Program-made: the position numbers and the translations under genes
The notes under the pieces: model-generated
What the model saw: only the letters and a program-made list of their open reading frames with translations
Database searches by the model: none
What the model was told of the DNA's origin: nothing
DNA from: a virus
Strand: one strand, 5' to 3'
Length of the DNA stretch: 25,407 nucleotides
Virus record (IMG/VR): IMGVR_UViG_3300048587_000139
Coordinates: 1 to 25,407 of that record
Shown here: in pieces, positions 2,166-7,680 of the stretch
Layout of the letters: every line of letters starts with the position of its first letter
Position numbering within the stretch: the first letter of the stretch is position 1

Positions 2166-2744
2166 TTACTTCTTCTTCTTGCCTTTGGCTGTTGTGCCGA
2201 GGACTTCTTCTTCCAACTCTTCATCGACGTCTTGGTCGACTACTTCAAGTTGTGGCGTTTGGTTGCCGGACATTCCTGCAAGGCTACTTCCAAAGATACT
2301 AGCGAAAGTTTCTGCGATACCGCTTGCTACTTCCGTCATCATAGCATTTTGTTGGCTGTATTCCAAGTTCAGGAAGCCTTCTACCCAAGCACCGTCTGAT
2401 GATGCAGTAAGTTCATCTCCTACTTTAACTTTGCCGAACATTTCGTGCGACTTGTCGGTCAATGCAGGATGTCCTTCTTGCACTTCATATTTGTCTCCTG
2501 CTTTGAAGAATTTAATATCTCCACTAACAGTACCTCCAATACATTTGCGCAGAGCATTATCGACTCTTGGGTCATTAATGTCTGTTACATTTGTTGGAAG
2601 GCGCAAGCTATTTTGCAGGTCTAATATTACCTGCTTAGGTGTTCTTGCAATACCTTTAGATTTACCTTCTACGTCAAACACAACGATTGGTTTGTCAATG
2701 TTGGTAATCTTTCTTACACGTACAATTCTAAATTGCTTGTTCAT
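2166..2744 (-). CDS. Hypothetical, probably abundant protein with acidic then lysine-rich tail, 192 aa
   Basis: The frame runs from ATG at 2744 to TAA at 2168-2166. The first 110 residues look like mixed beta structure, residues about 115-160 are Ala/Gly/Ser-rich and helical, and the C-terminus has an acidic stretch (DQDVDEELEEEV) followed by KGKKKK. Codon use is visibly richer in G and C than most neighbours and resembles the capsid gene, which suggests high expression. A hammerhead ribozyme lies in its leader, with predicted cleavage 39 nt before the ATG. An acidic tail is compatible with a single-strand DNA-binding or capsid-associated protein, but I do not recognise the family. The antisense frame at 2179-2754 is a shadow. 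Confidence 0.75.
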   Translation of the reverse strand: MNKQFRIVRVRKITNIDKPIVVFDVEGKSKGIARTPKQVILDLQNSLRLPTNVTDINDPRVDNALRKCIGGTVSGDIKFFKAGDKYEVQEGHPALTDKSHEMFGKVKVGDELTASSDGAWVEGFLNLEYSQQNAMMTEVASGIAETFASIFGSSLAGMSGNQTPQLEVVDQDVDEELEEEVLGTTAKGKKKK

Positions 2745-2775
2745 AATTAAATAGTTTTATGGCTCTCGCCGTTAT

Positions 2776-2839
2776 TAAAGTTTGACAGTATGCTGTTACA
2801 TACTGTTTCGTCCTACCATTGGACTCGTCAGAAACTTCA
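2776..2839 (-). ncRNA. Hammerhead ribozyme, type I
   Basis: Read on the - strand, all hammerhead parts appear in order. Stem I 5' strand AAGUUU is at 2837-2832, extendable by UG. Core CUGACGA is at 2831-2825. Stem II is GUCC/GGAC (2824-2821, 2813-2810) with a 7-nt loop. GAA is at 2809-2807. Stem III is ACAGUAUG/CAUACUGU (2806-2799, 2792-2785) with a 6-nt loop. Cleavage nucleotide C17 is at 2784 in a GUC triplet, and stem I 3' strand AAACUU is at 2783-2778, extendable by UA. The required G10.1-C11.1 and A15.1-U16.1 pairs are present. Stem I is the open stem, so it is type I. Cleavage between 2784 and 2783 would leave a 5'-hydroxyl mRNA starting 39 nt upstream of the 192-aa gene. Confidence 0.9.
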
Positions 2840-2938
2840 GGTTACTATTATTTCTCGATATACAGTTATACTTATTATGGTTAATAACCACATAGATAGT
2901 ATTATCAATATTACTTTGTCGGTTGTTTTTGTTTTCAT
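2837..2938 (-). CDS. Small single-pass membrane peptide, 33 aa
   Basis: ATG at 2938-2936 opens a 33-codon frame ending at TGA 2839-2837. The peptide has a charged N-terminus (MKTKTTDK), then a continuous hydrophobic segment (VILIILSMWLLTIISITVY), then REIIVT, giving a plausible single transmembrane helix. The start is preceded by an A-rich stretch like other starts here. The stop codon overlaps the outer part of hammerhead stem I, so ribosomes finishing this frame would disturb the ribozyme fold. It could be a small holin-like or regulatory membrane peptide; function unknown. Small size keeps confidence moderate. Confidence 0.45.
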   Translation of the reverse strand: MKTKTTDKVILIILSMWLLTIISITVYREIIVT

Positions 2939-3072: not shown

Positions 3073-3123
3073 ACCTCCACGATTTAGGTGGGGGTGCTTC
3101 ACTCGGCGGAACTTAGTGGGGGT
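3073..3123 (+). promoter_or_regulatory. G-rich hairpin with duplicated pairing strand
   Basis: ACCTCCAC at 3073-3080 pairs with GTGGGGGT at 3088-3095 around a 7-nt loop. The same GTGGGGGT occurs again at 3116-3123, so one strand has two possible partners. One pair is U.G on the + strand and would be A-C on the - strand, so a + strand RNA is favoured. It lies in the divergent control region upstream of the rightward operon. Confidence 0.4.
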
Positions 3124-3163
3124 TCAATATGAGGGTGGGTTAACAAACGTGTATCTTTTATTA

Positions 3164-6649: not shown

Positions 6650-7210
6650 ATGAGTAAAGAAAATGAAAATATGGATTTGGGTAATGAGACAAAAGACCAA
6701 AATCAAGACCAAGTATTACAAGAGACTGTGGAAGAAAATACTTCTAAAAGCAAGAAAGAAGAAGCGATAGAAAATATTAGAGAGGTACGAAGAAGAATGG
6801 ATAGAGTACTTACTGTAATGAATGAAGAAAATAATAAGAGTCGTTCAAGAGAATTATCTTTAGCTTGTACATCGTTCCAACTATCAAGAATGTGGTTTGG
6901 AAAAGCTTTAATAACTTTAGGAGAAGCTGGCTATAAAAATGATGGAAAACGTAAAGATGTTAAAGACATTGAACCACCTTCTGATAAAGCAAAAGAGTTT
7001 AATGGAGAACTTCCTAGTAATCGTGTAGAATTTTTAGACTATTTAAGAGAGACTATAAGAGATATAACTAGTAATATCAAAGAAATATCTAAAAGTATAG
7101 CTTTTGGTCCATATGTATTAGACAATACAGTAGAAAACTTAACAGAAGCTGTTATGTGGCTAGGCGCAGACCTAGGAAGATTATACGAAGAGAACAAGCA
7201 GAAAAAATAA
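6650..7210 (+). CDS. Acb2/Tad1-hairpin-like protein, candidate anti-CBASS sponge, 186 aa
   Basis: The start is ATG 6650 after an A-rich stretch. Residues 1-40 are acidic and probably disordered. Residues about 40-92 form a helical hairpin with RELSLACTSFQLSRMWFGKA (67-86), which resembles the conserved ELALAxTxLQxARMWLGKAL signature of Acb2 (T4 Vs.4-type) proteins. Acb2 binds cyclic di- and trinucleotides and blocks CBASS immunity; that is known of the family, not shown here. A second helical segment (about 130-182) extends well beyond the compact Acb2 proteins. The stop overlaps the next ATG (TAATG). An alternative is a structural protein that merely shares the hairpin. Confidence 0.65.
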   Translation: MSKENENMDLGNETKDQNQDQVLQETVEENTSKSKKEEAIENIREVRRRMDRVLTVMNEENNKSRSRELSLACTSFQLSRMWFGKALITLGEAGYKNDGKRKDVKDIEPPSDKAKEFNGELPSNRVEFLDYLRETIRDITSNIKEISKSIAFGPYVLDNTVENLTEAVMWLGADLGRLYEENKQKK

Positions 7211-7680
7211 TGCAAAGAGCAATATTCATAAACTTAGATAATACCCTAATCACTACAGTAAGTGGTAGGGTATTTTCTTTGCATAGTGATGATTGGAGAA
7301 TTAATACTAACTTATTAGACTTTCTATTAAAATATTTACCTGACTATGATAGATTAATAATAGTATCCAATCAAGATGCCATAGCTTTAGGAGAGCAAAC
7401 TATGTATGGATTTAATAGAATGTTAGAAAATATCTGTAGGCTATTAGAAAATAACCTAAAGATAGCCTCTAATTCTATTGCATATACCTACTGTATAAAC
7501 AAAGGAGACTTTAGATATATGCCTAATCCGGGTATGGCTTATGAAATGGCATTAGAATATGAAATAGATTTATCTCAATCTATTATGATAGGTAGTTCTT
7601 TAATACACGAACAATTCAGTAAAAAAGCTAATATAAAACAATATATATATTTAACTAATATAGGCTTAGTAAAACTATGA
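7210..7680 (+). CDS. HAD/PNK-phosphatase-like protein with degenerate active site, 156 aa
   Basis: Start chosen at ATG 7210, overlapping the previous TAA; an upstream in-frame GTG would overlap more. The fold follows the polynucleotide kinase 3'-phosphatase/HisB-N type of HAD protein: motif I FINLDNTLI, motif II LIIVSNQD, then YCINKGDFRYMPNPGMAYEM and SIMIGSS. Key residues are replaced. The nucleophile Asp is N8, the usual Lys before PxPGM is M104, and the motif IV acids are S129 and H133; only D10 and S53 remain. It is therefore probably inactive as a phosphatase, perhaps kept for nucleic-acid binding or as a structural partner. Its stop overlaps the TerL start (ATGA). Confidence 0.75.
   Translation: MQRAIFINLDNTLITTVSGRVFSLHSDDWRINTNLLDFLLKYLPDYDRLIIVSNQDAIALGEQTMYGFNRMLENICRLLENNLKIASNSIAYTYCINKGDFRYMPNPGMAYEMALEYEIDLSQSIMIGSSLIHEQFSKKANIKQYIYLTNIGLVKL

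Follow-up and report, generated by a model that had tools for sequence, protein, structure and literature searches.

The 25,407-base record analysed here (hereafter the window) is part of the genome of a divergent crAss-like phage. We base this assignment on the crAss-type terminase (PHROG 6681), portal and major capsid protein that it encodes, and on tblastn matches to crAss-like phages at ~30% identity. Its minus strand carries a divergent unit that consists, in this order, of a 33-aa ORF, a hammerhead ribozyme (HHR), a 192-aa ORF (P0001), a terminator-like hairpin and a 114-aa ORF (Table 1). The ribozyme lies between genes and on the same strand as the 33-aa ORF and P0001, as is the case for intercistronic hammerheads of phages.

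The 33-aa ORF was not conserved in the relatives examined. Homologues of P0001 were identified in L002 (45% identity over the blast match), in L028 (37%) and in L007/L014 (28%), and those of L002 and L007/L014 likewise lie upstream of the terminase in divergent orientation. The homologue in L028 was reached through an alignment of P0001 homologues; as a single-sequence query, P0001 found no relative among viral contigs and none among named phages. It has no Pfam, PHROG or PDB relative either, and its AlphaFold model has a pLDDT of 70. Likenesses to OB-fold proteins (RPA and others) and to unnamed crAss proteins were weak as fold matches, and we claim no function from them. The first-pass annotation, made from the sequence, had called the 192-aa protein probably abundant, for which we found no support. 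Searches with the leader DNA against phage records gave no match, or matches at chance level.

Table 1. Coordinates in the window of the hammerhead ribozyme, its parts and the neighbouring minus-strand features.
Feature	Positions	Strand	Basis
Type I HHR, stem I open	2776-2839	-	sequence; covariance model R1; fold z -3.4
Stem I, 6-8 bp: UGAAGUUU / AAACUUUA	2839-2832 / 2783-2776	-	sequence
Catalytic core CUGACGA (C3-A9)	2825-2831	-	sequence
Stem II, GUCC (2824-2821) / GGAC (2813-2810), 7-nt loop AAUGGUA, G10.1-C11.1	2810-2824	-	pair probability 0.98-0.99
Core GAA (G12 A13 A14)	2807-2809	-	sequence
Stem III, 8-9 bp: ACAGUAUG (2806-2799) / CAUACUGU (2792-2785), loop UAACAG	2785-2806	-	pair probability 0.64-1.0
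Predicted cleavage site 3' of C17 (GUC/A), 2784/2783	2783-2784	-	consensus position
Competing hairpin over the stem I 5' strand and part of the core	2825-2858	-	prediction only
33-aa ORF with hydrophobic segment; UGA stop (2839-2837) at the base of stem I	2837-2938	-	stop-to-HHR offset -3
39-nt leader of the downstream mRNA after predicted cleavage	2745-2783	-	ATG position
P0001, 192-aa protein conserved in related crAss-like phages	2166-2744	-	homologues in L002, L028, L007/L014
Conserved DNA element CCCACC..GAACCCCCAC upstream of the P0001 gene, possible promoter	3100-3139	-	comparison with relatives

Reading the minus strand from 2839 to 2776, we found a complete type I HHR with every required position in place, in agreement with the first-pass annotation. 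The core pairs are U-A at 2832/2783 (1.1-2.1), G10.1-C11.1 and A15.1-U16.1 (A2806-U2785), and C17 is position 2784, within a GUC triplet. Stems II and III are closed by loops while stem I is open, which is the type I topology. A tertiary contact between stems I and II is needed for fast cleavage, and around this ribozyme we found only 3-4 nt matches: loop II (AAUGGUA) matches ACC in the 5' flank over 3 nt (GGU/ACC) and the 3' flank over 4 nt (AUGG/CCAU), both short enough to be due to chance. The competing hairpin at 2858-2825 is predicted to be nearly isoenergetic with the hammerhead fold, and because of it the predicted probability of stem I drops from ~0.9 to ~0.2-0.45 in longer sequence contexts.

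The HHR pattern occurs once in the window and in none of 100 shuffles. With a structural descriptor that spanned all three HHR topologies, dinucleotide shuffling of the window (21,336 shuffles) gave an equally strong match in 4 cases, and the minimal isolated RNA folds as a hammerhead with z = -3.4. At gathering thresholds, Rfam gave no match anywhere in the window. When the surrounding 701 bases were searched at a permissive threshold, the best match was RAGATH-1-hammerhead (RF03152), with model positions 1-77 aligned in full (E 0.097 over 4227 families); its 24.7 bits are below the gathering score of 56.3, so that by Rfam's rule the ribozyme is not a member of this family. Hammerhead_1 (RF00163), also at a permissive threshold, gave 16.9 bits against a gathering score of 34. 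The window HHR has in common with RF00163 the topology, the core, G10.1-C11.1, A15.1-U16.1 and GUC; stem III of the model is shorter and was misaligned on the longer stem III of the window. The clear type I HHRs from the phage contigs L016, L017 and L019-L021 likewise all miss Rfam gathering, showing that the threshold is insensitive for these sequences.

Given this poor sensitivity, we built our own covariance model (R1) from an alignment (A5) of 16 type I HHRs of other phage contigs, leaving out the ribozyme of the window. A core pattern derived from the window had served to fetch most of the source contigs, and stem II of R1 is therefore somewhat biased. In the training alignment 12 of the 15 pairs change on both sides, and there is covariation in all stems across these 16 non-orthologous HHRs, a set that had been chosen by structure. 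R1 identified the window HHR (2777-2839; 36.3 bits, E 1.8e-9) as its sole match in the window, and in 1.3 Mb of related genomes it gave one further strong match, which was itself a row of the training alignment. The covariance-model check proposed in the first-pass annotation was thus positive with the phage-trained model, and negative at the gathering thresholds of Rfam. Overall, sequence, structure and an independent covariance model confirm the feature as a type I hammerhead, with cleavage as its predicted activity.

From the predicted cut (2784/2783) to the ATG of P0001 at 2744 there are 39 nt, so that the spacing of the expected 5'-OH end and the placement of the ribozyme directly upstream of the 192-aa gene were given correctly in the first-pass annotation. 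It had also placed the ribozyme in an untranslated leader. The HHR does lie between ORFs, but the leader is not wholly untranslated, since stem I includes the UGA with which the 33-aa ORF ends. This overlap had been missed, as had the fact that the layout is general. The ribozyme thus occupies the space between the two cistrons, with the upstream stop in stem I and the downstream ATG 39 nt after the cut.

The same arrangement was found across phage HHRs. Our survey used viral contigs collected by a core pattern that is blind to genes, with earlier contigs added to reach 91 type I HHRs. The stop of an upstream ORF lies within -12 to +10 nt of stem I in 68 of these (8.6% at random positions), a start codon follows 15-50 nt after the cut in 74 (32% at random positions), and both are in place in 59 (3.1%). 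A stricter set was restricted to the 76 type I HHRs found by pattern only, on 51 contigs, and was compared with 340 equal windows taken from the same contigs, each in a short gap that separates two ORFs of the same direction. In this comparison the stop was at -3 to +10 in 46/76 HHRs (61%) and in 67/340 controls (20%). In 33/76 the 5' strand of stem I contains the stop or abuts it, and in 15/76 the stop coincides with U4-G5-A6 of the catalytic core. Because the ORFs were called mechanically, individual cases may be in error; the excess of stop-adjacent HHRs is still large. The general layout rule of phage HHRs is that the upstream stop lies in stem I or the core, and that the cut falls ~20-45 nt before the next start. 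The occurrence of HHRs at the same position in many other phages suggests that phages employ them to cut long transcripts into separate messages. As a separate observation, three of the contigs (L019, L020 and L021) carry arrays of 3-5 type I HHRs each, nearly every one at a gene junction with a stop codon in or touching the ribozyme.

The reading that we favour, and consider likely, is that of an intercistronic mRNA-processing ribozyme: a type I hammerhead that cleaves itself in cis and so cuts a crAss-like phage transcript between two of its cistrons. This reading builds on the sequence, fold, context and layout described above, from which we infer transcription, cleavage and an effect on expression. 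The RNA would start upstream, probably near the conserved element at ~3139-3100, and would carry the 33-aa ORF, the ribozyme and the 192-aa ORF. Once folded, the ribozyme would cut after C2784, and the two halves would have separate fates. The upstream message would retain stems II and III at its 3' end, with a terminal 2',3'-cyclic phosphate, and the 192-aa gene would be left on a separate mRNA that begins with a 5'-OH and has 39 nt of leader. The new RNA ends would probably set the stability and relative dosage of both products. Against this reading stand the nearest relatives without a ribozyme (L002 and L028, see below), the missed Rfam gathering scores, the competition for stem I, the shortness of the candidate tertiary contacts and the 33-aa ORF, which is not conserved.

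The overlap with the stop codon may instead point to a ribozyme gated by translation. A ribosome terminating at the stop in stem I would cover stem I and the core, and cleavage would proceed only with upstream translation absent or finished; the competing hairpin, which extends over the end of the 33-aa ORF, would act as a second gate. The near-equal predicted energies of the hairpin and the hammerhead fold are in line with this idea, as are the stop codons embedded in stem I or in the core across the stricter survey set. However, tight gene packing yields the same overlap of stop and stem I, any ORF reading into CUGA meets UGA in one of the three frames, and an AU-rich strand of 6 bp will often find other partners by chance. 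As compact phage genomes account for the overlap just as well, we regard gating as unlikely for the window. The corresponding generalization is equally doubtful; it would make phage hammerheads a stop-codon-embedded class, of which the window HHR would be one example, with the passage and termination of the upstream ribosome gating self-cleavage, and thus the separation and life of the downstream mRNA.

We searched for HHRs in relatives and other crAss-like phages. A search of the nearest relatives for this ribozyme found none in G001, nor in most of the other records fetched in full. L002 and L028, the nearest relatives with the P0001 gene, lack a hammerhead at that site, so that genes of this family can be expressed without the ribozyme. 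In L007/L014, a type II HHR (RF02276, 53.3 bits) begins 1-2 nt past the stop of the P0001 homologue. Like the window HHR, that of L014 is at a junction of the same gene family and directly after a stop codon, but it sits on the other side of the P0001 homologue. The L028/L052 contig has a type II HHR that scores over the cut-off (39.3 bits), abuts the stop of a 60-aa ORF and has the next ATG at +28 nt. The type II HHRs of L007/L014 and L052 are circularly permuted (stem II open), unlike the type I ribozyme of the window, and are not orthologous to it. The L015 genome (L302) contains a type I HHR 29 nt before an ATG, as well as a type III HHR over the Rfam cut-off, and the L012 genome (L303) contains a type III HHR homologous to the latter (37.1 bits). 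The location of crAss-like HHRs at gene junctions in L007/L014, L028/L052 and L015 supports the processing of transcripts at such junctions.

Among named phages, RefSeq CrAssphage cr273_1 (Crassvirales, Suoliviridae; NC_055904.1 30487-30543, plus strand) has a type I-like HHR with an extra core A (CUGAAUGA); a core insertion of this kind has been reported to lower hammerhead activity (PMC3088659). The cultured Flavobacterium phage elemoF_6-3D (L319; MT497071.1 17865-17921, minus strand) has a type III HHR of 36.3 bits, below the cut-off, that lies in the leader of a 71-aa gene and ends ~14 nt ahead of the start codon. No hammerhead was found in the remaining crAss-like records that we searched. 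A sub-threshold type I match in G034 was discarded, as no hammerhead core could be read in it; several descriptor matches with long AT-rich loops inside genes were attributed to chance, and the reversed-sequence control gives one such match. The terminase family of the window (PHROG 6681), which includes Flavobacterium and Cellulophaga phages, was present on 13 of the 50 hammerhead-bearing contigs fetched by core pattern. Hammerheads are patchy yet recurrent in this broad phage group, and their types differ by junction.

This distribution may also be read as that of a selfish or neutral insertion, in which the 33-aa ORF and the HHR would be passengers at a gene junction, with the ribozyme cleaving to no benefit or decaying. 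The stretch with both is a gap in the leader alignment with L002, as expected of an insertion, and different HHR types are found at different junctions in relatives. The intact core and stems of the window HHR argue against this reading, and the stop-ribozyme-start layout is far above controls in unrelated phages; we consider an insertion improbable, slightly more so than gating. An inactive, hammerhead-like fold arising by chance would be consistent with the missed Rfam gathering score, and L002 and L028 provide no orthologue in which covariation could be seen; it is nevertheless very improbable given the R1 E-value, the rarity of equally strong matches in shuffles and the position at a gene junction. 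Least probable of all is an origin in a circular-RNA or satellite-like element, such as retrozymes, in which two hammerheads flank the monomer: type I hammerheads do occur in such elements (PMC7761336, PMC3088659), but the 25.4 kb contain a single one, placed between phage genes and with no matching second copy.

Processing at gene junctions is also what has been proposed for hammerheads of other phages. These have been known since 2011 (Perreault et al. 2011, PMC3088659). Those that occur in clusters flank genes and were shown to cleave in vitro, and it was proposed that long transcripts are cut in this way into mRNAs of single-gene or operon length (PMC3088659). The window HHR belongs to the same ribozyme class and has the same gene-junction site (PMC3088659). 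It differs from the 2011 set in being from a crAss-like phage, in a single copy in 25 kb, with AU-rich stems and with stem I over the stop codon; the words "stop codon" are absent from that report (PMC3088659). The hammerhead variant of the haloviruses HF1/HF2 (HHphage) is 13 nt upstream of the helicase start, and its activity in vivo was inferred from transcript-end data (PMC3088659). Like the window HHR, with 39 nt from cut to ATG, it lies just upstream of a start codon, and both are expected to define an mRNA 5' end; HHphage has a variant core and belongs to a virus of an archaeal host, whereas the core in the window is canonical (PMC3088659, PMC7230728). We found no report of hammerheads in crAss-like phages in the literature searched, which lay mostly outside subscription journals. 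The hammerhead in Crassvirales is apparently new to the literature, the ribozyme class being already known in phages. The role of hammerheads in phages has been an open question since their discovery there in 2011, and the quantified layout rule, from the window HHR and the survey together, makes it directly testable. With its type III HHR, the cultured elemoF_6-3D is a phage in which 5'-OH ends could be mapped during infection in the laboratory; the region that follows this HHR (AAAACUAUU, then an AAUUAUG start) resembles the start region of the window.

Several other features were observed in these genomes. The type III HHRs of L302 and L303 are both followed, within a non-coding stretch, by a common motif (CAAGTTGTGCGTAAGATAAACTNAAACGCTCAA), and may lead a non-coding RNA of crAss-like phages. 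The terminase genes of L010 (1724-3628) and L012 (10001-11908) have in-frame stop codons, making TAG-type recoding likely; unlike these relatives, the window needs no such recoding. The element CCCACC..AACCCCC upstream of the P0001 gene, a possible promoter or leader element, was found once per genome in L108 (10241, minus strand), L117 (6312, minus strand) and L122 (17735, plus strand), and a diverged copy in L028 was spotted by eye. Also on the minus strand of the window, a 441-nt stretch without a long ORF (1284-1724) folds with z -4.7, equalled by 0 of 100 shuffles, and ends in a terminator-like hairpin; it matches nothing in Rfam, has no nucleotide relative in the crAss loci compared, and is a candidate large structured RNA. 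Finally, a HAD protein of the PNK3P type (polynucleotide kinase 3'-phosphatase; 7156-7680, plus strand) adjoins the terminase and is kept in relatives, including some in which no hammerhead was detected. It could act on the ends made by the ribozyme; its motif is NLDNT in the window and DLDNT or DLDHT in some of the others.
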